A stretch of DNA of 33,128 nt from Bacteroidia bacterium (GTDB taxonomy: Bacteria > Bacteroidota > Bacteroidia > J057), in the NCBI GenBank assembly GCA_030430205.1, contig JAUIGE010000054.1, positions 1 through 33,128 on the forward strand, read 5' to 3'. The notes beneath the pieces were generated by a model. It made no database searches. It was not told where the DNA came from and was given only the letters and a program-made list of their open reading frames with translations. The first letter of the stretch is position 1. Each line of letters starts with the position of its first letter. The position numbers and the translations under genes are program-made. This document shows positions 3,355-20,604 of this stretch, piece by piece.

Positions 3355-6300
3355 CTAGTAAGTGGGGCTTAGGTAAGCAGAAGGCCGTTTTCCAAAACGT
3401 TTTTCAAATACTTTGCTGAAATAGGCAGGGGTATTGAAACCGCTGGAATAGGCCACTTCGGCTATGGTACCAAAGGATTTTTTCTCCAGCAGGATGCGCG
3501 CTTTTTGCAGTTTTACCTCCTGGCTGTAGTCTTTGATGGAAAGGCCTGTCAGGCTTTTGACCCTGCGCAGCAGTTGCCTTTCGCTGGTGGCCATGTGACT
3601 GGCCAGGTCCGATACCAAAGGGCTCATGCCCTTGTCGAGGGTATCCAGGATGAGCTGCTCCAATTGCTGGAGCCAGGCATCATCCACCGGCTCTGGGGCT
3701 TGCTCTTCAAGCTTTTGAAGCAGTTCGTTTTCTTGTTGAAAGGCTTGCCTTTGCTGGTAGTTGTGCAGGAGATTCTGGAGGCGGGCCTGCAATTCTTCGG
3801 GAGAAAATGGCTTGGTGAGGTAGTCATCTACACCCATTCGGAGGGCGGTGAGTTTGTCTTTCTCGGCGGCGCGTGCCGTCAGCATGATGACCGGCAACTG
3901 CCGGTGGATAGGATGAGATTTTACTTTTTCCAACAAAGCATAGCCATCCATGCGCGGCATCATGATATCGGAAAGAATCAGGGAAACAGGCAAAGCGCCC
4001 GGTGCCTGATTTTCCAGGTATTCCCAGCCTTCCTGCCCATCAAAGGCAGCAGTGATATGATAGGCATTTTCCAACATGCTACGCAGAAATTGCTGGATGT
4101 CGGCATTGTCTTCGACGATGAGGATATGCCGTTTTTCGGCATTCGGAGGTGTGGCTGTGATTTCCCCTTTAAGCGCTTCTTCCTTTTTTACCCAAAAAAC
4201 TTCCTGAGACTCAGCCAACCTGGAAATACTTTCCACTTCCCGCGCCGGAAAGCGCAAATAGAACCGGCTGCCTTCTCCCTCACGGCTTTCCACTGCCAAT
4301 TCCCCCTTCATGAGCAGAGCCAATTCTTTGGAAAGGGCAAGCCCAATGCCTGAGCCTCCTTTATGGGAAGCCTGCCTTTTTTTCGATTGAAAAAAGCGGT
4401 CAAATACGTGCGGAAGGTCTTCCTCCGCGATGCCAGGCCCTTTATCCCGAACCGCAAGCAGGAAATGGCCTGCCTCTCGCCGGATTTCAAAAATGACTTC
4501 TCCTCCACTGGAGGAAAATTTGAGTGCATTACTCAATAGATTGGTGAGGATTTTGCCCAGGCTATTTTCGTCTATTTCGAGAAAAAGGGGCCTTTCCAGC
4601 TTGTACACCATCCTGTAGGTGATTTTTTTAAACTCTGCCTGTAGCTGGAAAGTGGAGAATATTTGCTGGCAAAAAAACTGAAAGTCAGTGGGTTGAAGGT
4701 CCAGACTTACCTGTCCTGATTCCAGCTTGGCCAGTTCCAGCAGCTCTTCCGTCAATTGCAGGAGAGATTGCCCATTTTTTCGGATCATAAAGAGCGGATC
4801 CAGCATCTCCTTGCTGAATTTGCCTGCTGCCTTCTGGATCAATTGCTGCACAGGCCCGAGAATGAGGGTGATAGGCGTGCGGAGTTCATGGGAAATATGG
4901 GTGAAAAAACGCGTTTTCAGTTTGTCCAATTCCTGCAATTCAGCTGCCTGTTTTTCGATGGTTTTTTTGTCCTGCTCTATTTGGCGTGTGCGTTTGCCCA
5001 CCATGTCTTCCAGGACTTTTTTCTGGCGCTGGAGCTGCAGGGTACGAAACCGCAGCAAAAGCCAGATGCCCAAAAGCAAGGCAATAGCCGCTGAAATTAA
5101 GAAAGCTGTTTTCAGGTAAAAGGGCTTTTTGACGATCAGGGCTAAGCTGATTTGTTGTGGAGCATAGCTGCCATCGCTCCCTCTTGCGCGCAGTTTCAGC
5201 TGATATTTTCCGTAAGGAAGGCCACTCAGTAGCAATTCGTTTCCCTGCATCTTTTGCCAGACATCATAGAGGCCTTCTATCTTGTATTCATACTTGACTT
5301 TGGGGCTAAAAAAATAATCCTGGAGAGCTATCTGAATGGAACAAAAGCGGTCCGTCGGGGAGAAAACGATTTCCCTGTCCTGTTTCAGTTTTTTTGTCAA
5401 ATCCCTGAGCAGGTCTTCGTCTTCTATATATTGCTTAAAAGAGCTGATCACTAATGCCTGTTCATCGTTTTTATCCCGATAAAATGCCTGAGGATAAAAT
5501 GCATTCACCCCTGTGATGGTACCCATATACAGCCGCCCGTCAGGAGCCTGATAGTGGGAGGTTCGGTTAAACTCATAGCTGCTTATCCCATCTTCCGGGA
5601 AGAAGCTCCTCAAGGTGAAATCCTCTTTGTTGAACTGTATGAGGCCATAATCACTCCCCATCCAAAGATGATTGAAATCATCTTCGTAGATAGCATAGAG
5701 GGTATTACTGGGCAGGCCATGGTCCTGGGTGAATTGTCGGATGGGTTTTTGGGAAGCTTGGGGCTCCCATCTGATAAGGCCTGCGTCCGCAGTGGCCAGC
5801 CAATATACGCCCTGTGCATCCTGATGCATGTGGTAAAAATTGCTGGCAGGTAAATGGTATTTTCCCTCTTCGGAAGCAGCGTATTTTTGGGTAATTCCTT
5901 TTTGTAAATCCAGCACATAAAGGCCTGTATTGCTGCACACCCAAATGATGCCCTCTCTGTCTGTATAAAAGCAAATGACATGGGCTTTTTGCAGGCTTGT
6001 ATGTTCATTATATGCATCGAAAAGCTGGAGAGCGGGCTTTTTTGTTTCATCAAAAACAGCCAGTCCCTGATTTAGGCCGAGCCAGATTCGTTCATTTTTA
6101 TCTTCGAAAAGTGCCCAGGCGGTGAGGGTTCCTTCGTTGAGGGGAAAAGCCTGAACTTCATTTCCCTCGGTATCTAAGCGCAACAGGCCCTCAGCGGCCG
6201 TCCATAACCGACCTTTGCTGTCAAGCAAAAGAGGAACGCGGTATCCCCCCAACAAATCCTCTGCCGCACGCCTTCGACGGTCTTTGGTATCAAATGGAGG

Positions 6301-7500
6301 CAAACCCTCATAGGTATTTTGTCCCATACCCGTTGCCAGGTCGATGCGGGAAGATCTTGTGTAGCGGTTGATGAGCAGCTGCCCATTTATTTCTATGATG
6401 CCGCGGACACCTGTCGAGGCTTTTCCGATATCCCATTTGGCTGTTTCTCTGTCAAGATATAGGGTAAAAGGATTTTTTTTGAAGTGCATCATCAGGATGC
6501 CTTCATCGGTCACCAACCAGGCAAGTTCTTCCCTGTCAAAAAAAAGCTGATTTACCTTCCTCGCAGCTTCTTCTCCTTGTATTTCAGGATTTCCCCATAA
6601 ATACTTTCCCTGGCTATCCAGCACCCAGATAGATTTATTTTCTGTGTACCACAGGCTTTGGTCACTGGCCCTTACAGCCACCCTGCTAATGTTGGTGGGG
6701 CCTGGAAAGGGAGAATTTTTGTTGACAACAAAGCGGGTATCACTATCGGGGCCAATTCGGCGAAATTCGCCGGATTCTGTCCCTTCCGGGGGCTGCAGGA
6801 TCCACAGGATCGAGCTGTCGCCAGCTTGCTGGCGGATGAGATCATTGACTGCCTTATTTTTGCCTAAACCGAGGCTGGCTTTGATTCGTCCCGACTCATC
6901 CGTACAAATCAAGCTGTCATGGGCATTTTTCAACCAGATTTCATCTTTGTTGATCCAGCGGATAAGCTGCATCCCATCTGCCCAAAACAGCTGCTTGAAG
7001 CCTTCAGCAGGATGATACGTCCAGCTTTTAGCCTTTTCCAATAAAAGAATATGCTGGCCGTCGGTTTGAGAAAGGTGGATGATATCTGAGGGATGAAAAG
7101 GGGCTTGCTCTCCGAATTTTTCCTCAAAACTGACGCTTTCTTCTGTTTGTGGGTGAAAAAGTTGAAGGCTTTTTAGGGGAGACTTATCGTGGTATACGGC
7201 CCGATCTGCCATCCAAAAGTAGCCTTCAGCATCTTCAAAAATCATGTGAATCCGGTCTGAGAAAAGGCCTCCTTTTGCTTTTGTCCATTTGCTGAATGTA
7301 TAGCCATCAAAGCGATTCAGGCCAGACTCTGTCCCAAACCACATAAAGCCTTCACTGTCCTGATGGACACAATAAACGACCCGATGCGACAGTCCATCCT
7401 CTACACTCAGCGACCTGAAATGTGTGCTATACCTCTCCTGTTGGGCAAAAATACCCGATAAAATAAAACAGCCTATGAACACCAGGAATTTGGATTTCAT
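3355..7500 (-). CDS. Hybrid two-component system sensor kinase / AraC-type regulator
   Basis: A 1381-residue one-protein signalling system of the HTCS type typical of Bacteroidota. Order: signal peptide (1-19, ending GIFAQ), a periplasmic Reg_prop propeller with repeats such as DSEGFMWFGTESGLNRFDG, a Y_Y_Y domain (about 712-792), one membrane helix (about 797-815), HisKA with the phospho-acceptor His871 in SHELRTP, HATPase with N box NLLSNALKFS and glycine boxes DKGPGIAEED and GGSGIGLALS, a receiver domain with Asp1178 (SDIMMPRMDGY) and Lys1230 (LTKPF), and a C-terminal AraC HTH (about 1300-1379). All key residues are present, so it should be active. The ligand is unknown; HTCS proteins often sense glycans, but no SusC/SusD or glycoside hydrolase lies here. 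It sits between two related surface-protein genes, its likely targets. ATG at 7500 is chosen because it gives a clean signal peptide. Confidence 0.95.
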   Translation of the reverse strand: MKSKFLVFIGCFILSGIFAQQERYSTHFRSLSVEDGLSHRVVYCVHQDSEGFMWFGTESGLNRFDGYTFSKWTKAKGGLFSDRIHMIFEDAEGYFWMADRAVYHDKSPLKSLQLFHPQTEESVSFEEKFGEQAPFHPSDIIHLSQTDGQHILLLEKAKSWTYHPAEGFKQLFWADGMQLIRWINKDEIWLKNAHDSLICTDESGRIKASLGLGKNKAVNDLIRQQAGDSSILWILQPPEGTESGEFRRIGPDSDTRFVVNKNSPFPGPTNISRVAVRASDQSLWYTENKSIWVLDSQGKYLWGNPEIQGEEAARKVNQLFFDREELAWLVTDEGILMMHFKKNPFTLYLDRETAKWDIGKASTGVRGIIEINGQLLINRYTRSSRIDLATGMGQNTYEGLPPFDTKDRRRRAAEDLLGGYRVPLLLDSKGRLWTAAEGLLRLDTEGNEVQAFPLNEGTLTAWALFEDKNERIWLGLNQGLAVFDETKKPALQLFDAYNEHTSLQKAHVICFYTDREGIIWVCSNTGLYVLDLQKGITQKYAASEEGKYHLPASNFYHMHQDAQGVYWLATADAGLIRWEPQASQKPIRQFTQDHGLPSNTLYAIYEDDFNHLWMGSDYGLIQFNKEDFTLRSFFPEDGISSYEFNRTSHYQAPDGRLYMGTITGVNAFYPQAFYRDKNDEQALVISSFKQYIEDEDLLRDLTKKLKQDREIVFSPTDRFCSIQIALQDYFFSPKVKYEYKIEGLYDVWQKMQGNELLLSGLPYGKYQLKLRARGSDGSYAPQQISLALIVKKPFYLKTAFLISAAIALLLGIWLLLRFRTLQLQRQKKVLEDMVGKRTRQIEQDKKTIEKQAAELQELDKLKTRFFTHISHELRTPITLILGPVQQLIQKAAGKFSKEMLDPLFMIRKNGQSLLQLTEELLELAKLESGQVSLDLQPTDFQFFCQQIFSTFQLQAEFKKITYRMVYKLERPLFLEIDENSLGKILTNLLSNALKFSSSGGEVIFEIRREAGHFLLAVRDKGPGIAEEDLPHVFDRFFQSKKRQASHKGGSGIGLALSKELALLMKGELAVESREGEGSRFYLRFPAREVESISRLAESQEVFWVKKEEALKGEITATPPNAEKRHILIVEDNADIQQFLRSMLENAYHITAAFDGQEGWEYLENQAPGALPVSLILSDIMMPRMDGYALLEKVKSHPIHRQLPVIMLTARAAEKDKLTALRMGVDDYLTKPFSPEELQARLQNLLHNYQQRQAFQQENELLQKLEEQAPEPVDDAWLQQLEQLILDTLDKGMSPLVSDLASHMATSERQLLRRVKSLTGLSIKDYSQEVKLQKARILLEKKSFGTIAEVAYSSGFNTPAYFSKVFEKRFGKRPSAYLSPTY

Positions 7501-12568: not shown

Positions 12569-13543
12569 ATGAAAAATTACCTGCTCTCCCTCTTCCTCTT
12601 CACCCTGCTCACGCAGTTGGGCTTCTCCCAGACTTCCCTCAAACTGGAAATCAACCACAAGCTTGGCCAGGATGAGTTTTCCATTAACAAAATGGCTCAA
12701 AACAACCTGGGGCAGGATTTTACGGTCATCAATCTGAGATACTATCTTTCCAATTTTAGCATTACCCATGATTCCGGGAAGGTCTACCTCATTCCGGATT
12801 TGGTCGCATTGGTAGATGCCAGCCAGCCGGAAGTGATCGATTTGGGCGTCCATTATGTAAACAAGATAGAAGCCATCTCTTTTTATATGGGCATAGACTC
12901 GGCCCGTAACCACCTCGATCCTTCGGCCTATTCTCCTTCTGACCCTTTGGCTCCCCAAAGTCCTTCTATGCACTGGGGATGGGCTTCTGGCTATTTTTTT
13001 CTTTCAATGACCGGGAAATGTGGTCTCAACCTCAGAAGCGAAATAGACCTGCAATGCCTGGGCGATGAAAATTATTTTCAGACCACAGTCGAAAATCCCC
13101 TGCTGAGGGATTCTTTGAATGAAACCTGGATCAGCATAGATGGGGATTACCAGGGCCTGCTGCGAAGCATGGACATTAGCGAAAGTGTCATCATGCATGG
13201 CCCCTTTGCATGGGCTCAGCAGGCGCTCATCAGCGCCTCAAAATATGTGTTTTTTGCGCCGGGCTCCGTTTTTACTGCGCTGGAGGGGCCCGAACCTCAG
13301 CCATCACTCACCTGCTATCCCAACCCTGTACAGCAGGGCCAAAAATTGGTGATTGCTGTGGACAGGCAGCCAGGGCAAATAAGCTGGAAAATGTATGACC
13401 TGATGGGGCGGGAAGTCTCAAGGCAGGAAAACCTTCCGGCAGGAGTGAAAAACGCCATTGATTGCGACCGGCAGGGAGTGTTTATCCTGAAAGTATTTCA
13501 GGAGGGGGAGTTGCTGGGAGTGCGGCGGATTCTGGTGGAGTAG
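12569..13543 (+). CDS. Secreted MbnP-family protein with T9SS sorting domain
   Basis: A 324-residue protein with a signal peptide (1-20, ending LGFSQ). The central part matches the MbnP family, including the segment SMHWGWASGYFFLSMTGK (about 133-150) that is the best conserved in the family, and LRYYLSNF (about 57-64). In methanobactin operons MbnP is the copper-binding partner of the dihaem enzyme MbnH, which oxidises a tryptophan of MbnP; Bacteroidota carry many such proteins without known substrate. The C-terminus from LTCYPNPVQQGQ (about 257) to the end is a T9SS type A sorting domain, so the protein should reach the cell surface. No MbnH, cytochrome or TonB receptor gene is adjacent. Metal binding is inferred from the family, not seen. 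ATG at 12569 fits the signal peptide. Confidence 0.82.
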   Translation: MKNYLLSLFLFTLLTQLGFSQTSLKLEINHKLGQDEFSINKMAQNNLGQDFTVINLRYYLSNFSITHDSGKVYLIPDLVALVDASQPEVIDLGVHYVNKIEAISFYMGIDSARNHLDPSAYSPSDPLAPQSPSMHWGWASGYFFLSMTGKCGLNLRSEIDLQCLGDENYFQTTVENPLLRDSLNETWISIDGDYQGLLRSMDISESVIMHGPFAWAQQALISASKYVFFAPGSVFTALEGPEPQPSLTCYPNPVQQGQKLVIAVDRQPGQISWKMYDLMGREVSRQENLPAGVKNAIDCDRQGVFILKVFQEGELLGVRRILVE

Positions 13544-13635: not shown

Positions 13636-15165
13636 ATGAAGAAGCATATTTTTTGGGTGACAAGTGGGGTAGTTTTTTACCTCCTCACCACAGCTTTTTG
13701 CGGTTTTTATGTGACAAACTTTAAAGAAGGCCTAACCAACAAAAGTTCCTCTGTAATCATCGCACGCAAAGGTGCTGAGACGGTCATCACCATGCAATCA
13801 GATGTACATGGCAATGTCGGAGATTTTGCGATGGTTGTACCTGTGCCAGAGGTCCTGAAAAAGAAACAAATCAAAACTATTTCTCCCTCTATTTTTAAAA
13901 AACTTTCTGATTACTCTGCTCCCAGGCTTACAGAGTATAATGACTCTGACCCATGTACTTTAGTGGATGATCGAGATTTGTTAAGGCAACTTTCGGGAAG
14001 GATATCAGGTGTACAACTCATGAAGGGAAATTCTTCCATTCAGGGAAAAGATCGATACCAGGTGAAAATTCGTGAAAATTTTCAAGTCTCATGTTATGAC
14101 ATCGTATTGCTTTCTGCCAAAAACGCTGCGGGGCTTCAGCTTTGGTTGACAGACCATGGCTACAAAATTCCTGCCCATGCCAATGAATTACTTTCTCCTT
14201 ATATCAAAAGTGGGATGTTTTTCTTTGTTGTCAAAGTTGATCAACGTGCCTGGAAGCAGATGAATATATCAAATCTGCCGCCCATTCAAATGCGCTATTC
14301 CAGTAATAGATTTATGCTTCCCTTGCGCCTGGGAATGGCAAATGCAGAAGGTCCTCAGGATATGATTGTCTATGCTTTTAGTGATCAAGGTCGCATTGAA
14401 CCAGCTAATTATCGCATGATTGAAATACCTACAGATAAGCCTTTACCCACTTTTGCGGAAGAAAGATTTAATGAAGTTTACGAAAGGATTTTGGACCAAA
14501 AGCTGGAAAAGAATGGGAGAAATGTATTAGCACTGGAGTATAGTTGGAACATTAGTGGAAATAATTCTAATAAGTGCGATCCTTGCCCAACAAACCCTAT
14601 GAGCTATGAAGAGTTGGCTCAGGCAGGCGTTTTTTGGCTTGATCCGCTAGACAACTCATATAAGGGTGACCTCCATTTCACCCGCATGCGGGTACGGTAT
14701 GATGAAGAACATTTTCCCCAGGATATTCAATTTCAAGCAACCCCCAACACAAGCAATTATCAGGTCCGCTATTTCATCACCCATCCTTATCCGGCGGATC
14801 TGTCATGTCCAGACGCTTTTCCCTATTATCAGTCAGTGATGATGAGGCGGCAAGAGGAGCTTCACTCTTTTTACAAACTGACCAACTATGCGGATATGCT
14901 GTATGCCTCTGATTATGTAAAGGAATATGTGGAAATGGCAAATAAGGCTCTCCCAGCCTATGAGGAGGCTGTCAAACTGGAACAAGAGCGAATGCAAAAA
15001 GAAATGCGGCTTCGTGCCACCCCTCTTGAAGAAAAATTGAAAAAAAATATCTTGTGGCTAGGGCGTGGGGGTAAATTGCCTCCTTATTTTGGGCTTTTGA
15101 TGTTAGGGCTGATTCCCCTGATTTACTTTTATTTCAAAAGAAACCCACAATTTAAAAAAGCATGA
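13636..15165 (+). CDS. DUF2330 envelope protein, copy 1 of 4
   Basis: A 509-residue protein of the uncharacterised DUF2330 family. Signal peptide 1-20; the mature end starts near FCGFYV, with Cys22. Family motifs in order: SDVHGNVGDFAMVVPVPEV, EYNDSDPC, CYDIVLLSA, GYKIPAHA, GMFFFVVKV, RFMLPLRLGMANA, QDMIVYAFS, KCDPC (Cys314 and Cys317), AGVFWLD, GDLHFTRMRVRY, FPQDIQFQATPN. A hydrophobic helix (about residues 483-499) followed by KRNPQFKKA anchors it with the main domain outside the cytoplasm. Copy 1 is the longest, with a Glu/Lys/Arg-rich helical segment before the anchor (about 435-470) not seen in the others, and a more AT-rich coding sequence than copy 2. Its stop overlaps the start of copy 2 in ATGA, implying coupled translation. 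Molecular function is unknown. Confidence 0.88.
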   Translation: MKKHIFWVTSGVVFYLLTTAFCGFYVTNFKEGLTNKSSSVIIARKGAETVITMQSDVHGNVGDFAMVVPVPEVLKKKQIKTISPSIFKKLSDYSAPRLTEYNDSDPCTLVDDRDLLRQLSGRISGVQLMKGNSSIQGKDRYQVKIRENFQVSCYDIVLLSAKNAAGLQLWLTDHGYKIPAHANELLSPYIKSGMFFFVVKVDQRAWKQMNISNLPPIQMRYSSNRFMLPLRLGMANAEGPQDMIVYAFSDQGRIEPANYRMIEIPTDKPLPTFAEERFNEVYERILDQKLEKNGRNVLALEYSWNISGNNSNKCDPCPTNPMSYEELAQAGVFWLDPLDNSYKGDLHFTRMRVRYDEEHFPQDIQFQATPNTSNYQVRYFITHPYPADLSCPDAFPYYQSVMMRRQEELHSFYKLTNYADMLYASDYVKEYVEMANKALPAYEEAVKLEQERMQKEMRLRATPLEEKLKKNILWLGRGGKLPPYFGLLMLGLIPLIYFYFKRNPQFKKA

Positions 15166-16616
15166 AAACCCTATTCCTTTTTGTTGCCGGCACAATCTTC
15201 TTCCTCGCCACCACCGCATTCTGCGGCTTTTACGTCGCCAAAGTCGACGCCAAACTCTTCAACAACACCTCCGAGGTCATCCTCGTTCGCAAAGCCGACA
15301 AGACCGTTCTGACGATGAAAAATGACTACGAGGGCGATCTCAAAGACTTCGCTATGATCGTTCCGGTGCCGGAAGTGATCAAGCGGGAGCAGATTCGCAT
15401 CGCCGATGCGGCGATTTTTGAGAAACTGAATGATTATTCAGGGCCGCGCCTGGTGGAGTATCAGGATGAACATCCCTGCATGAAATATTTAACCTATACC
15501 TGGGCAAATTCAAGGAGCGATGCAGGAGTGAGCGAAACCATTTATTTAAAAGATGAAAATGGGCTGGGTGTCACTATACTTGAAAGCTACTCCATCGGCG
15601 AATACGATATCGTCGTTCTCTCCGCCACCCAGTCCGACGGACTGGCGACCTGGCTGACAGCCAATGGCTACAAAATCCCCGAAAAAGCCAGCAAACTGCT
15701 GCAGCCCTATATCCGCAATGAGATGAAGTTTTTTGTGGTGAAAGTAAACCTGAAGGAACAGGCAAAAGTGGGCGGAGAGCAGCTGCGGCCTATTCAGATC
15801 GAATTTCAATCTGACAAATTTGTCCTGCCGATCCGGCTCGGCATGGCCAATGCCAAAGGCACGCAGGATATGCTCATCTACGCCTTCACGGCCCAGGGCC
15901 GCGTCACTTCCACCAACTACCGCACGGTAGAAATCCCTTCCAATCAGGATATTCCTGAATTTATTCAGGAGGATTTTCAACCTTTTTACAAAGACCTTTT
16001 CGACAAAGCCTATAAAAAGGAAGGCCGAGATGTCGTCTTCACCGAATACGCCTGGAACCTCGATGCTGACAACTTTGTCAAGTGTGATCCCTGTGCCACG
16101 ACACCTCCTGCTTATGCAGAACTGAAGGAGGCAGGCGTATTCTGGCTGACAGAAAGTTCCAATGGAAATCGTTGGCAAGGCTCTGACTATCAGGGATCGC
16201 TGCACTTCACCCGCCTGCATGTGCGCTATGATGGTGCGCATTTTCCGCAGGATCTTAGCTTTCAGCTCACGCCGGATCGCCGCAATTTTCAGGGGCGATA
16301 TGTGATCCATCATCCGGTGAAAGAGGCGGTAGGCATGGAAGATTGTGAAGAAGCAGCTAAATACTTTGCAGATGTGGTGATGAGGAGAAAGCGGGAATTG
16401 ATCAATTGCGAAAAATTGACAGGATGGGATGTTTCGAATAGGTTTTTGACCTATGTTGGGCCTTATGAGATTTTAAAGAAAAAATATGAAAAAGGGCAAA
16501 TGCCTTTGCCAGAAAATCCTTCCGGGCCGATTTTGCCTTATGTGATCCTGCTCATCGCCTGCGGCGGGTTGGCATTGGGGTGGTTGATCCCGAGGATTAG
16601 ATTGAATTATAATTGA
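15162..16616 (+). CDS. DUF2330 envelope protein, copy 2 of 4
   Basis: A 484-residue paralogue of the preceding gene, starting within its stop codon (ATGA overlap). Signal peptide 1-19, then FCGFYVAKVDAKLFN with Cys21. It keeps DFAMIVPVPEV, EYQDEHPC, EYDIVVLSA, GYKIPEKA, RPIQIEFQSDKF, LPIRLGMANA, KCDPC (Cys308 and Cys311), AGVFWLTE, GSLHFTRLHVRY and FPQDLSFQLTPD. The segment between HPC and EYDIVV shows no resemblance to that of the other copies. A C-terminal helix (ILPYVILLIACGGLALGW) ends with the basic tail IRLNYN. Codon use is more GC-rich than in copy 1. Probably anchored in the inner membrane and exposed to the periplasm; function unknown. Confidence 0.88.
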   Translation: MKTLFLFVAGTIFFLATTAFCGFYVAKVDAKLFNNTSEVILVRKADKTVLTMKNDYEGDLKDFAMIVPVPEVIKREQIRIADAAIFEKLNDYSGPRLVEYQDEHPCMKYLTYTWANSRSDAGVSETIYLKDENGLGVTILESYSIGEYDIVVLSATQSDGLATWLTANGYKIPEKASKLLQPYIRNEMKFFVVKVNLKEQAKVGGEQLRPIQIEFQSDKFVLPIRLGMANAKGTQDMLIYAFTAQGRVTSTNYRTVEIPSNQDIPEFIQEDFQPFYKDLFDKAYKKEGRDVVFTEYAWNLDADNFVKCDPCATTPPAYAELKEAGVFWLTESSNGNRWQGSDYQGSLHFTRLHVRYDGAHFPQDLSFQLTPDRRNFQGRYVIHHPVKEAVGMEDCEEAAKYFADVVMRRKRELINCEKLTGWDVSNRFLTYVGPYEILKKKYEKGQMPLPENPSGPILPYVILLIACGGLALGWLIPRIRLNYN

Positions 16617-16686
16617 TTGAAAATCAATTTTTCATGTAGGGACGCATGATAATGCGTCCCTACATCTCATCAACGAAAATCGTTGA
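16611..16686. repeat. Three consecutive palindromes between DUF2330 copies 2 and 3
   Basis: Three perfect inverted repeats follow each other: AATTGATT-gaa-AATCAATT (16611-16629, overlapping the stop codon of copy 2), ATGTAGGGACGCAT-gata-ATGCGTCCCTACAT (16634-16665, 14-bp stem), and TCAACGA-aaa-TCGTTGA (16670-16686). The middle one looks like a dispersed palindromic element; a single arm of it recurs at 20619-20629. Together they could attenuate transcription or stabilise the upstream transcript. Confidence 0.8.
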
Positions 16687-16739
16687 AATCCCCTGATGAC
16701 CTTCCTCATTCTCCCTCCATCAACCCTCAAAAAGCAACA

Positions 16740-18230
16740 ATGAAAAGAATTCTTTTTTTCTCCCTCATCCTCTTCAGCTCCCAGCTAAGTTCCGCATTTT
16801 GCGGCTTTTACGTCGCCCAGGCTGACGCCAGCCTTTTCAATCGGGCTTCTGAAGTCATCATCGCCCGCATGGGCGATCAGACCGTGGTCACCATGTCCTC
16901 GGACTTTGAAGGTCCTGTGCAGGACTTCGCCATGGTGGTGCCGGTACCGGAGGTGCCTACCCGCGAGATGATCCGCGTAGCAGATCCGGCTATCTTTGGC
17001 AAACTGGACGCTTATAGCGGCCCGAGGATCGTCGAATACTATGATGAGGATCCCTGTGAACCGGAATATTACGATGATTGGTCAGGAGATGACTTTGGCG
17101 ATGACTTTACGGCTGAAGCTGACGATGGAGATGGAGCTGGGGGATTCGATGTGGAAACCCGGGTCACCATCAAAGCCCGCTATACGGTGGGCGAATACGA
17201 CATCGTGGTGCTTTCTGCCGAGGAGTCCGGTGGACTCGTCAAGTGGCTGACAGCCAACCAATACCGCATACCCGAAAAAGCCCAAAGGCTTTTGGAACCC
17301 TACATCCGAAACGGCATGTTTTTCTTTGTGGTAAAAGTAAATCTGGAAAAAATGCCAGCGGGCGAAAAACAGGAGCTGCGCCCCATCCAACTCACTTATA
17401 GCTCGGACCGCTTCATGTTGCCCATCCGACTAGGCATGGCCAATGCCCAGGAAGATCAGGACATGATCGTCTACGCCTTTTCCGACAAAGGCCGCATTGA
17501 GTGCACGAATTACCGCACAGTCGAGATCCCAACAAATGTCGACATACCTGATTTTGTGGCGGATACTTTTGGCGCTTTTTATAGCGCTTTGTTTGATTTG
17601 AGCTGGAAAAAAGCAGGACAAAATGTGGTCATGACCGAGTACAGCTGGGATTTGGATTCGGAAAACTTCACCAAATGTGATCCCTGCTCAAGCACACCGC
17701 CCAATTATGGTGAATTGCGGGAGGCAGGTGTCTTTTGGGTAAATCCCAACACGGATGATTTTTCGGCTTCAGACTATGAAGGGAAATTGCATTTCACACG
17801 CATGCATGTGCGCTACCGCACGGAGACTTTTCCGCAGGATCTGCTCTTCCAGGCTACGCCTGACAGAAATCCCTTTCAGGGGCGCTATGTGGTGCATCGG
17901 GTGCCCGATTCTGACTTTGCCTGCGAAGCAGGCCAGACATACCTCAAGCAGCTCGTAGAGCGCCGCAAAGACGAACTGAAGGAACTTCAGTCGCTGACTG
18001 GTTGGGAATCGAAATCCTTTGAAAAGTATCCATTTGCCTACGCAGACCTGATGAAAACACAGCCCTGGCTCAATCCGGTGAAAAAAGAGGAAAAACGCAA
18101 TGAGTGGTTTGTTATTCCTCTGGATGTTTTTCCCAAATGGCCATTATTTGCAGGAATTTTTCTACTATCCGTTTTCTGTTATTTAGCATTCATTCAAAAA
18201 AAACGTCCCCTTCGGCATCTTTTTGCATGA
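16740..18230 (+). CDS. DUF2330 envelope protein, copy 3 of 4
   Basis: A 496-residue DUF2330 paralogue. The frame can be extended upstream to a TTG at 16683, but ATG at 16740 places the signal peptide MKRILFFSLILFSSQLSSA at the N-terminus as in the other copies, so this start is used. Motifs: FCGFYVAQADASLFN, DFAMVVPVPEVP, EYYDEDPC, EYDIVVLSA, GMFFFVVKVN, RFMLPIRLGMANA, QDMIVYAFSDKGRIE, KCDPC (Cys313 and Cys316), AGVFWVN, GKLHFTRMHVRY. The variable loop after DPC is strongly acidic (YYDDWSGDDFGDDFTAEADD). The C-terminal helix (about 468-486) is followed by KKRPLRHLFA. It is separated from copy 2 by the palindrome cluster, so it may have its own transcript level. Confidence 0.88.
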   Translation: MKRILFFSLILFSSQLSSAFCGFYVAQADASLFNRASEVIIARMGDQTVVTMSSDFEGPVQDFAMVVPVPEVPTREMIRVADPAIFGKLDAYSGPRIVEYYDEDPCEPEYYDDWSGDDFGDDFTAEADDGDGAGGFDVETRVTIKARYTVGEYDIVVLSAEESGGLVKWLTANQYRIPEKAQRLLEPYIRNGMFFFVVKVNLEKMPAGEKQELRPIQLTYSSDRFMLPIRLGMANAQEDQDMIVYAFSDKGRIECTNYRTVEIPTNVDIPDFVADTFGAFYSALFDLSWKKAGQNVVMTEYSWDLDSENFTKCDPCSSTPPNYGELREAGVFWVNPNTDDFSASDYEGKLHFTRMHVRYRTETFPQDLLFQATPDRNPFQGRYVVHRVPDSDFACEAGQTYLKQLVERRKDELKELQSLTGWESKSFEKYPFAYADLMKTQPWLNPVKKEEKRNEWFVIPLDVFPKWPLFAGIFLLSVFCYLAFIQKKRPLRHLFA

Positions 18231-18277
18231 AGATTGAGTAAATTACGGTATTATTTAAACCTGAAAACCATAACCTT

Positions 18278-19708
18278 ATGATCCGTAGCCTTCTCTTTTC
18301 CCTCCTAATATTGGGATTATTTGCCCAAAGTCAGGCATTTTGTGGCTTCTATGTCGCCCAGGCCGATGCCAGCCTTTTTAATAAAACATCCAAAGTGATC
18401 CTCGCCCGTGATGGCAATCGTACCACGATTACCATGGCCAGCGACTTCAGCGGCGATGTGGAGGCATTTGCCATGGTTGTGCCGGTTCCTGTGGTCATTC
18501 AGAGAGACCAGATCAAGATTGTGAGTGCTTCCATTTTTGATAAATTGGATGCCTACTCCAGCCCACGTCTGGTGGAGTATTTTGATGAGGATCCCTGTAA
18601 TGAGGGCCTTTCTCTCGATGAAAAAATGCAGTATGAAGTAGCAGCTCCGGCTTCTGCTGATAGTGAAAAAAAGAATAATGCCCTGGGCATCAAAATAGAA
18701 GCCCGATATACCATCGGTGAATACGACATCCTGGTGCTTTCTGCACGTGAGTCCGAAGGACTCAAAATCTGGCTCAAAAGCAACGGATACCAGGTGCCGG
18801 CCCATGCCGAAGCGATATTGGAACCATACATCAAAAACAATGTGAAGTTTTTTGTGGCAAAGGTCAACCTGATGGAATATGCCAAAAAGGAAAATCAGCA
18901 ACTCAGCCCGCTGCAAATGACCTTTGAAACCAACAAATTTATGTTGCCGATTCGTCTGGGCATGGCCAATGCCGAGGGCGATCAGGACCTGGTCGTGTAT
19001 GCCTTCTCCCGGGAAGGGCGCATCGAAACCACCAATTACCGCACCATCGAAATCCCTACAGATCGTGATATCCCTACTTTTATCAAAGAAACCTTTGGTA
19101 GTTTTTATGCTGCCCTTTTTGAAAAAGCATGGGAAAAAGCAGGAAAAAATATCGCTCTGACTGAGTATGCCTGGGACCTCAGCTCCAGCAATTATACGAA
19201 GTGTGATCCCTGCTCTGGCGAGCCGCCCCTGTTCGCTGACCTCAATGAGGCGGGTGTTTTTTGGCTGGATAACCAAAAAGTAGGCGGAACAGACTATAAT
19301 GGGGATGTATTCATCACCCGTTTGCATTTCCGCTACAACCTGGAGAAATTTCCCCAGGACCTGCAATTTCAGGTTACGCCTAATCAGGAAAACTTTCAGG
19401 CACGTTATGTGATGCATCACCCAGCCGAAGGCACCTATCGTTGCCCGCAGGGCGAAGATTATCTGCAAAAACTGATCTTGCGCCGCAAGAGCGAGCTGAA
19501 TGAAATGGCCAAACTGACTGGCTGGGATGTGAAAGAGCATGAGGCTTATGTGGGCGTATACGAGGAGCAATTGGAAAGAAGAAGAAAAGATAACTCTGGC
19601 GAGGGCAGCCTTCCGCCCTTTGCTTATGCCCTGATCGGCGCTGCAGCCCTGGGGCTGGGATTGTACGGCTACCGTGCGATTCGCGGCAACAGAGACAATG
19701 TGGCTTAA
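18278..19708 (+). CDS. DUF2330 envelope protein, copy 4 of 4
   Basis: A 476-residue DUF2330 paralogue, closest by eye to copy 3 over the N-terminal segment FCGFYVAQADASLFN. Signal peptide 1-20 (ending AQSQA). Motifs: DVEAFAMVVPVPVV, EYFDEDPC, EYDILVLSA, FMLPIRLGMANAEG, KCDPC (Cys309 and Cys312), AGVFWLD, FPQDLQFQVTPN. The variable loop (SLDEKMQYEVAAPASADSEK) is again unlike the others. The anchor is PPFAYALIGAAALGLGLYGY with a short Arg/Asn tail. Gap to copy 3 is 47 bases without visible signals. A hairpin at 19730-19772 probably ends the transcript. Function unknown. Confidence 0.88.
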   Translation: MIRSLLFSLLILGLFAQSQAFCGFYVAQADASLFNKTSKVILARDGNRTTITMASDFSGDVEAFAMVVPVPVVIQRDQIKIVSASIFDKLDAYSSPRLVEYFDEDPCNEGLSLDEKMQYEVAAPASADSEKKNNALGIKIEARYTIGEYDILVLSARESEGLKIWLKSNGYQVPAHAEAILEPYIKNNVKFFVAKVNLMEYAKKENQQLSPLQMTFETNKFMLPIRLGMANAEGDQDLVVYAFSREGRIETTNYRTIEIPTDRDIPTFIKETFGSFYAALFEKAWEKAGKNIALTEYAWDLSSSNYTKCDPCSGEPPLFADLNEAGVFWLDNQKVGGTDYNGDVFITRLHFRYNLEKFPQDLQFQVTPNQENFQARYVMHHPAEGTYRCPQGEDYLQKLILRRKSELNEMAKLTGWDVKEHEAYVGVYEEQLERRRKDNSGEGSLPPFAYALIGAAALGLGLYGYRAIRGNRDNVA

Positions 19709-19875: not shown

Positions 19876-20604
19876 ATGTCGCCTTACCTGATCATTGTTC
19901 CTACATACAACGAGCGAGAAAACATAGAAGCTCTTCTTCGAATGGTTTTTGACCTGGAGGATGGCTTTGATGTATTAATTGTGGAAGATAATTCTCCAGA
20001 TGGTACTGCAGCGATCGTCAAGGATCTGATGAAAGAATTCCCTGAACGCTTGTTTATAGAAGAACGGGCCGGGAAGCAAGGCCTGGGGACGGCATATATT
20101 CACGGCTTCAAGTGGGCCATTAAGCGGGGGTATGATTACATCTTTGAGATGGATGCAGACTTCAGCCATAATCCCAAAGAGTTACCTGAATTGCTGAAAG
20201 CCTGTCGGGATGAAGACTTTGACATGGCCATCGGCTCCCGCTATGTGAATGGGGTCAATGTGGTCAACTGGCCCATGAGCCGCGTGCTCATGAGTTATTA
20301 TGCCAGCGCTTATGTGCGCTTAATCACCGGGATGAAAATCCGCGATACAACCGCCGGGTTCAAATGCTACAAAAGGGCCGTTTTGGAAAAAGTCCTGGAA
20401 CGTCCCGTGAAATTTGTAGGCTACGCCTTTCAGATCGAAATGAAATTTCGCGCCTGGAAGTACGGCTTTAAAATCAAAGAAGTACCCATCATCTTCCGCG
20501 ACCGCACCAATGGCGAATCCAAAATGTCCAGCGGGATCTTCAAAGAAGCCATCTTTGGCGTTATCAGCATGAAAATCGCTTCCTTTTTCAGCAAATGGAA
20601 ATAG
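19876..20604 (+). CDS. Polyprenol monophosphomannose synthase-type GT2 glycosyltransferase
   Basis: A 242-residue family 2 glycosyltransferase of the dolichol/polyprenol-phosphate mannose synthase type, which moves a sugar from GDP- or UDP-sugar to a polyprenyl phosphate at the cytoplasmic face of the membrane. Visible motifs: IIVPTYNERENIEALL (residues 6-21), VEDNSPDGT, KQGLGTAYIHGF, the metal-binding DAD at 93-95 in FEMDADFSHNP, GSRYV, RDTTAGFKCY, and IIFRDRTNGESKMS near the C-terminus. There is no C-terminal membrane domain, as in bacterial Ppm1-type enzymes. Whether mannose or glucose is used cannot be read from the sequence. It may feed sugar for glycosylation of exported proteins, which is common in this phylum (inference). 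Confidence 0.9.
   Translation: MSPYLIIVPTYNERENIEALLRMVFDLEDGFDVLIVEDNSPDGTAAIVKDLMKEFPERLFIEERAGKQGLGTAYIHGFKWAIKRGYDYIFEMDADFSHNPKELPELLKACRDEDFDMAIGSRYVNGVNVVNWPMSRVLMSYYASAYVRLITGMKIRDTTAGFKCYKRAVLEKVLERPVKFVGYAFQIEMKFRAWKYGFKIKEVPIIFRDRTNGESKMSSGIFKEAIFGVISMKIASFFSKWK

Follow-up and report, generated by a model that had tools for sequence, protein, structure and literature searches.

What four adjoining genes of one family do for a single bacterium is the question raised by a stretch of 33,128 nucleotides (the window) from a Bacteroidia bacterium (GenBank assembly GCA_030430205.1, contig JAUIGE010000054.1). A first reading of this DNA, made from the sequence alone, described four co-oriented, intact DUF2330 genes in tandem at positions 13636–19708 and suggested distinct jobs for the copies or a hetero-oligomeric envelope complex. 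For this family (PF10092) the Pfam description gives no function, and no paper was found in the literature searched for DUF2330, PF10092 or COG4402. DUF2330 is very probably one half of an undescribed two-component module, the other half being a membrane protein like NqrB/RnfD (here termed RnfD-like); that the four ectodomains, each with a different loop on show, work with one such membrane subunit is held with modestly better than even confidence.

The array itself was confirmed. All four open reading frames (ORFs) lie on the plus strand without internal stops, match PF10092 at 204.6–244.3 bits (cut-off 24.7, Pfam profile search) and cover the profile almost end to end. They are the only PF10092 matches in the genome (7,238,886 bases, 80 contigs), and no NCBIfam family was matched by any of them. 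Copies 2–4 are 43–45% identical to copy 1, the stop of copy 1 and the start of copy 2 overlap in ATGA (15162–15165) as described, and each C-terminus reads as a hydrophobic stretch followed by basic residues, in agreement with the one membrane helix per copy that had been claimed. AFCGFYV, LGMANA, KCDPC and FPQDxxFQxTP are common to the four copies; the DFAMxVPVPxV motif, also listed as shared, is without its leading D in copy 4 (AFAMVVPVPVV). The statement that nothing else lies between the copies is true of genes and not of a palindrome at 16636–16663 (Table 1).

The membrane partner of DUF2330

Linkage was counted in the best 80 of 553 DUF2330 relatives in named genomes, using a profile (A3) of 20 unfused RnfD-like proteins over all reading frames. 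In 55 of these loci an RnfD-like gene (PF03116) immediately precedes DUF2330 on its strand, in 17 the two are fused, in two the contig start hides the place and in six the genes are not adjacent, giving 72 of the 78 informative loci with the gene upstream or fused. Pfam confirmed the fusion architecture on two fusions and on L114. Four further candidates (L063, L081, L111 and L120) proved to be out-of-frame extensions and were not counted as fusions; the L063 extension did enter alignment A4, though only in columns that the first sequence of A4 does not occupy. The array had been seen in isolation by the sequence-only reading: its partner is next door or fused in most loci examined and on another contig in this genome.

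The same profile was used on two genome draws, an even draw of 396 Bacteroidia and 292 genomes of the phylum of locus L136 (Waterburya, Cyanobacteriota). It matched at E <= 1e-95 in exactly 39 Bacteroidia genomes, all of them bearing DUF2330 (39/39). RnfD-like genes without DUF2330 were seen in G180 (E 1.3e-58, cut at a contig end) and G055 (E 1e-44, divergent), and ordinary NqrB/RnfD proteins, of which four were read, are among the many matches that begin at E 5e-20 and grow weaker from there. DUF2330 was present in 64 of the 292 genomes of the cyanobacterial draw. There, an RnfD-like match (E <= 1e-60) was found in 57 of 59 DUF2330 genomes (E <= 1e-45) and no genome held the RnfD-like gene alone, at E limits chosen after the lists had been seen. 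These limits leave out weaker DUF2330 matches (G412, G418, G428, G440, G446) and weaker RnfD-like matches (G418, G455, G464, G513, G549, G601, G670); G455, G464, G513 and G601 (E 1e-29 to 1e-37) are without DUF2330. The two genes adjoin or are fused in 35 of 39 Bacteroidia and in 53 of 57 genomes of the cyanobacterial draw, and co-occurrence gave Fisher p values, with kinship ignored, of 6e-52 and 7e-59, respectively. In both surveys DUF2330 varies in number, but each genome gave a single strong RnfD-like match; in G480 a weaker one (E 1e-21) was found as well. Copy numbers of both genes are to be read as "at least", since for many genomes not all candidates from the first look went on to scoring (in the window genome, G000, 6 of 22 did). 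No third gene family was common to more than 12 of the 89 loci (clusters unannotated), so the RnfD-like gene does not as a rule belong to an nqr or rnf operon.

The RnfD-like gene of the window genome (C13:122455-123294, E 4.3e-111) is a 284-amino-acid (aa) frame ending in its own TGA, and matches PF03116 at 57.4 bits against a cut-off of 27.7 (L141:8441-9292). A structural model of the RnfD-like partner resembles RnfD (Z 22.2–23.4) and NqrB (Z 19.9–21.0) in the PDB more than AmtB (Z 10–12) or urea transporters (Z about 10), and the NP loop and the Asp of the TDP motif are shared with these Na+-NQR and Rnf membrane subunits. The Asp is invariant in 20 of 20 RnfD-like proteins and aligns to D346 of Vibrio cholerae NqrB, a riboflavin ligand (PMC10643135). 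The partner differs from true NqrB/RnfD in its score against the NCBI rnfD subfamily, 37.2 bits, far under the cut-off of 207.05, and in its alignment to 8ahx_D (71 bits in total, 8.2 bits in the first half), which skips RnfD residues 134–210. The skipped stretch is the one in which true NqrB/RnfD proteins have the [S/T]GAT loop of covalent flavin mononucleotide (FMN). This loop is absent from all 20 aligned RnfD-like proteins; it is found in three of four true NqrB/RnfD proteins used for comparison, the fourth reading TGET. Furthermore, the riboflavin contact Asn200 is replaced by an invariant His.

NqrB/RnfD homologues outside full Rnf or Nqr complexes, with extracytosolic partners, have been described as NQR/RNF-like flavinylated systems (PMC8238504, in the part at hand). 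Those systems combine an NqrF-type NAD domain with an extracytosolic FMN-binding domain, whereas the partner here is DUF2330, which is unnamed in that part of the description (no profile search for ApbE or FMN-binding domains was made in the present loci). Relatives of the RnfD-like domain are fused to FG-GAP/ASPIC_UnbV domains in G601 and G464 of the cyanobacterial draw, and alike by eye in G455, and the RnfD-like gene of G055 has an FG-GAP/ASPIC_UnbV protein as its neighbour; the domain may for this reason serve in the membrane as a base on which different large outer domains are mounted, FG-GAP/ASPIC_UnbV proteins being a second kind beside DUF2330. Loci with such a fusion or adjacency are L186:3230-6097, L187:3253-6297, L152:3519-6171 and, by eye, L188:2-1258.

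Predicted fold, mature N-terminus and variable loop

An AlphaFold model of copy 4 was built from 61 sequences (predicted local distance difference test, pLDDT, 85.7; predicted template modelling score, pTM, 0.80). Foldseek analysis of this model against the PDB gave baculovirus P35 as best hit (E 2.1e-3, prob 0.91, and E 1.5e-2, prob 0.80), with a prob of at most 0.33 for other listed chains. VIA-align superposed it on P35 with Z 10.9 and a root-mean-square deviation (rmsd) of 4.5 over 215/281 residues, and, in a second match to P35, with Z 10.8 and rmsd 5.0 over 237/298, laying model residues 23–368 on P35 residues 2–299; the next fold was an oligosaccharyltransferase subunit (Z 7.6). Only four matches at E <0.001 were found in a viral library (Foldseek prob 0.99–1.00), namely nucleopolyhedrovirus p49, entomopoxvirus P35, an uncharacterised protein of the same entomopoxvirus and granulovirus P35. 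A second model was made of a fusion protein of a different lineage, and P35 was the best match to its DUF2330 part too (Z 10.8, 10.7, 10.3 and 10.0; Foldseek prob 0.95–0.99). On these models the DUF2330 ectodomain probably has a P35-like fold, a confidence lowered on account of the template modelling (TM) scores given below, and homology to P35 is possible. Searches of DUF2330 sequence against solved structures gave no match at E up to 1, and among the titles and abstract openings listed by literature searches on P35 with structural homologues, evolution, crystal structure, or AlphaFold and bacteria, none dealt with a bacterial P35 fold.

According to a review, P35 is cut in its reactive loop at D87, needs its N-terminal C2 to preserve the trap and has a fold set apart from those of three other caspase inhibitors (PMC7863939); AcP35 inhibits gingipain-K as well (PMC3375223). 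Besides the likeness of its predicted models to P35/P49 (MEROPS I50), DUF2330 has in common with these inhibitors a Cys expected as mature residue 2, if cleavage occurs as predicted, and a variable loop that is exposed and falls, by chain order, at about the same place. It differs in lacking sequence similarity and in its low TM-scores, and as a membrane-anchored bacterial ectodomain with a CxxC and without a conserved caspase site in the loop; inhibition would be by analogy.

For the N-terminus and the loop, 139 copies with 129 distinct loops were parsed, and invariance and entropy were taken from the 61-sequence alignment. The residue before FCG is A, S or G in all 135 copies that hold FCG; of the other four, three are cut at the start of the locus and one (L071:16056) is without its N-terminal part in frame. 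Because of this constancy, the mature chain should start Phe-Cys after signal peptidase, judging by sequence. All 61 sequences have cysteines 22, 107, 309, 312 and 389, the first of them close to the expected mature terminus.

Mean entropy reaches about 3.5 bits at residues 111–130, compared with about 0.1–2.1 in most other blocks up to 420; within residues 21–420, only 201–210 (2.54) and 331–340 (2.97) also exceed 2.3 bits. This hypervariable loop is 30–37 residues long in all 61 sequences. The window paralogues are 11–29% identical within it and 47–58% elsewhere, which gives the suggestion of distinct jobs some support. Over the 139 copies methionine is enriched 2.57-fold in the loop. As a hint of copper binding this fails for the window, whose loops hold only 3 Met in 130 residues.

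Wording of the SusC plug and TonB-box (DEVVVTGYG, GKVAGVQV) was read in 8 of 139 loops, those of window copy 1 (L003), L099, L105, L114, L115, L133, L135 and L137, with the L099 and L114 proteins 92% identical. Motif 1 occurred 6 times against a shuffle mean of 0.001 and motif 2 occurred 5 times against 0.067, figures that are after the fact since the patterns were written once the likeness had been noticed by eye. Among other proteins of the loci (495,852 residues, no SusC protein by filter), motif 1 was found 0 times and motif 2 27 times, from which 0.23 occurrences of motif 2 would be expected in the loops. Two of the eight loops matched TIGR04056 weakly (E 0.017 and 0.025), none of the eight matched Pfam, and of four SusC loci of the window genome that were read, among 56 SusC matches listed, three hold at least one motif. 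The likeness is kept as a lead from sequence.

The invariant cysteines also suit the main rival explanation, in which the module handles electrons or metal: the RnfD-like protein, with a non-covalent flavin, would pass electrons between quinone and the DUF2330 cysteines (the CxxC of KCDPC, Cys22, Cys107 and Cys389) or a metal, and the copies would serve different acceptors. NqrB/RnfD homology with the riboflavin Asp kept, the methionine enrichment over the whole set and a gene for an MbnP-type copper protein just upstream of the array all speak for such a role. The missing covalent-FMN loop, the His in place of Asn200, the lack of a fixed redox partner or MbnP among the loci and the methionine-poor window loops speak against it, leaving it doubtful.

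Copy number and descent of the arrays

DUF2330 was found in 39 of the 396 Bacteroidia, 28 with one match and 11 with more. The number of matches in a bearer varies between 1 and 6, and between 2 and 6 in the bearers that belong to family f44. The survey of Bacteroidota genomes that had been proposed with the first reading revealed tandem arrays in 7 of the 39 bearers: four copies in the window genome, three plus two in its sister genome G001, two in G005, G094 and G220, three in G123, and in G176 five, with a further piece at the contig end and one copy on another contig. One member of the G176 array has no N-terminal part in frame and looks decayed. Two-copy arrays were also seen in G470 and G595 of the cyanobacterial draw. 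In the same draw G446 has eight divergent DUF2330 matches; loci L189 (G446), L191 (G428) and L194 (G403) represent a DUF2330 group that has diverged, in which the proteins start ACGG(L/F)FC and are long at the C-terminal end, and profile search found no RnfD-like match in G446 or G428.

These counts bear on the hetero-oligomeric complex of the sequence-only reading, in which four different copies would assemble and their loops would be ordinary surface variation. Four intact, diverged copies kept together, of which copies 3 and 4 are also kept as a pair in G001, speak for such a complex; single-match genomes, 28 of the 39 bearers, imply that DUF2330 can work without paralogues, and the spread of 1 to 6 matches (2 to 6 in f44) argues in the same direction. 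A four-way complex is considered unlikely.

The copies of the window are old as well as intact. In the tree, copy 3 is sister to one member of a G001 pair (support 94/92) and copy 4 to the other (100/99, starred), and the orthologous pair in G001 has the same order and is followed by the same glycosyltransferase gene (78% identical). The first reading named one outcome that would refute it, related genomes in which one copy stands beside decayed further copies; the sister genome does not show this, as it has five open copies. Copy 1 is the fastest-evolving of the four (end branch 2.47), and its position is unsure because of this long branch. A single clade for the four copies was rejected (approximately unbiased test, p-AU 0.0037), in a test run after the tree had been seen and with the long branch of copy 1. 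The arrays of family f44 are recent and lineage-specific, with pairs at 100/100 support. As these are recent while copies 3 and 4 have orthologues in G001, arrays must have formed repeatedly, every time in a genome with a single strong RnfD-like gene. In G001 this gene lies directly upstream of the array of three (L062). The RnfD-like gene of the window genome has two upstream neighbours in common with that locus, and neither the locus nor the whole-genome PF10092 search showed a DUF2330 gene after it; a DUF2330 gene beside it would have been lost or relocated. By eye, it is followed by a small HYC-type protein gene and Cus-type heavy-metal efflux genes (L141:8441-14704).

The recent f44 pairs and the decayed-looking G176 copy would also suit ordinary tandem duplication for dosage with neutral drift of the loops, as an exposed, disordered loop drifts anyway and some other pairs of loops are conserved just as well as the orthologous ones. 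Set against dosage are the rejected single clade, within the limits of that test, the strongly acidic loop kept by copy 3 (net charge -13) and its orthologue (net -16), and the steady loop length; on balance it is judged quite unlikely.

Table 1. Features of the DUF2330 array and adjoining DNA, in window coordinates
Feature	Position	Strand	Evidence and remarks
DUF2330 copy 1, 509 aa	13636..15165	+	PF10092 204.6 bits; signal peptide, expected mature start FCGFYV, ectodomain, C-terminal membrane helix
Hypervariable loop, copy 1; contains LSGRISGVQLMKGNSS	13957..14061	+	Alignment; likeness to SusC-type receptor plug signature
DUF2330 copy 2, 484 aa	15162..16616	+	PF10092 241.6 bits
Hypervariable loop, copy 2	15480..15569	+	Alignment
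Perfect palindrome GTAGGGACGCAT-GATA-ATGCGTCCCTAC, 12-base arms, between copies 2 and 3	16636..16663	.	Edge of G001-syntenic part
DUF2330 copy 3, 496 aa from ATG	16740..18230	+	PF10092 244.3 bits; orthologue L060:8482-9981 in G001; start taken as ATG 16740 (TTG 16683 in ORF listing)
Hypervariable loop, copy 3, strongly acidic	17058..17162	+	Alignment; net charge -13
DUF2330 copy 4, 476 aa	18278..19708	+	PF10092 243.8 bits; orthologue L060:10001-11470 in G001; AlphaFold model m8f552cc300b7
Hypervariable loop, copy 4, residues 108-137	18599..18688	+	Alignment; residues 111-135 below pLDDT 50
C-terminal membrane helix of copy 4	19616..19687	+	Model helix, residues 447-470
Family 2 glycosyltransferase	19876..20604	+	PF00535; orthologous pair in G001 also followed by a 78% identical gene

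The palindrome between copies 2 and 3 has one match in the window and 0 in 100 shuffles, and among 201 loci only the two spanning this position contain it; by its looks it is an extragenic palindrome. TAnnTTTG is the promoter motif of Bacteroidota, and none was found in the five gaps. Terminator-like sites exceeded shuffles (23 against a mean of 9.0, sd 3.7) and were left unused as all lie inside genes. The glycosyltransferase gene, because it also trails the orthologous pair in G001, serves as a marker of synteny and is probably not part of the system. Upstream, 92 bases before copy 1, lies the MbnP-type gene (12569–13543, plus strand; a match to a type IX secretion system tail is below cut-off). 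No MbnH-type match was found among the 19 window ORFs scanned, and a copper partnership with MbnP was set aside because no third gene family is common to more than 12 of the 89 loci, which makes MbnP no general neighbour. A hybrid two-component regulator of 1381 aa is encoded at 3355–7500, with sensor propeller, kinase, receiver and AraC-type domain.

Proposed working of the module

In the reading preferred here, the products of the array would be four paralogues serving as extracytoplasmic subunits in a single module of the inner membrane. Each DUF2330 would be exported by a normal signal peptide that is then cleaved, leaving a mature chain beginning Phe-Cys, and would fold outside the membrane as a P35-like beta-sandwich with one C-terminal helix as anchor. 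Each subunit would expose one loop of about 30 residues, and the copies would differ mainly there. Since no more than one strong RnfD-like match turned up in any genome of either survey, a single RnfD-like partner is most likely common to the four ectodomains, as alternatives or together; they would form a physical complex with it and be exchangeable in it. The loops would decide what each version of DUF2330 meets, and could act as bait or sensor for an envelope or foreign protease, or for TonB-type partners. A cut in the loop, with the N-terminal Cys, might then trap the protease and/or change the RnfD-like protein.

Several results weigh against parts of this reading. The RnfD-like gene of the window genome does not adjoin the array, so its pairing with the four window copies is something we infer. 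Foldseek TM-scores against P35/P49 are 0.14–0.28 by query and 0.27–0.41 by target, where the usual threshold is 0.5, and the VIA rmsd to P35 is 4.3–5.3 Å at 7–11% identity. Ost1 and M1-peptidase sandwiches match as well, though less strongly (Z 6.4–7.6), which means that part of the P35-like arrangement is common. With E values up to 10 allowed, a search with Pfam P35 profiles found no match among 61 DUF2330 proteins, and the fusion model (pTM 0.54) has no reliable interface between DUF2330 and the RnfD-like domain. The variable loop would lie at the place of the P35 reactive loop by residue order and aligned end points of the models, not by coordinates. Variability is not confined to it either, with residues 331–340 and everything after 420 (stalk, helix and tail, at least 2.75 bits) variable too, and the orthologous loops (41% and 33% identical) are no closer than some non-orthologous pairs (36 and 35). 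No loop residue, and hence no caspase-type cleavage site, is conserved in 61 sequences. C14 caspase genes showed no association with DUF2330 (18 of 39 bearers against 130 of 357 other genomes, p = 0.30), and a caspase target inside the cell was rejected on this count.

The bait remains the most specific proposal because P35 likeness, Cys2 and a variable loop come together in DUF2330; by analogy, a step of cutting and trapping, or cutting and signalling, is put forward only tentatively. A wider conjecture, thought quite improbable, is that DUF2330 forms the bacterial branch of the viral P35 superfamily and may even be its origin. Its members would be membrane-tethered suicide traps or sensors of proteases, in which Cys2 captures the acyl intermediate after the bait is cut and the RnfD-like protein senses or resets; arrays would diversify baits as serpin arrays do, with baits sometimes mimicking the SusC plug and TonB-box.

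For a family on which the literature search yielded nothing, these results point to a partner, make one fold likely and suggest a mechanism that can be tested. The RnfD-like protein would, if the proposal is true, be a second kind of NqrB/RnfD protein, working without covalent FMN. If the P35 likeness reflects homology, DUF2330 would be a cellular relative of a viral inhibitor. The contrast in copy number, one strong match to the membrane subunit and up to six ectodomains, makes the role of the loop directly testable.

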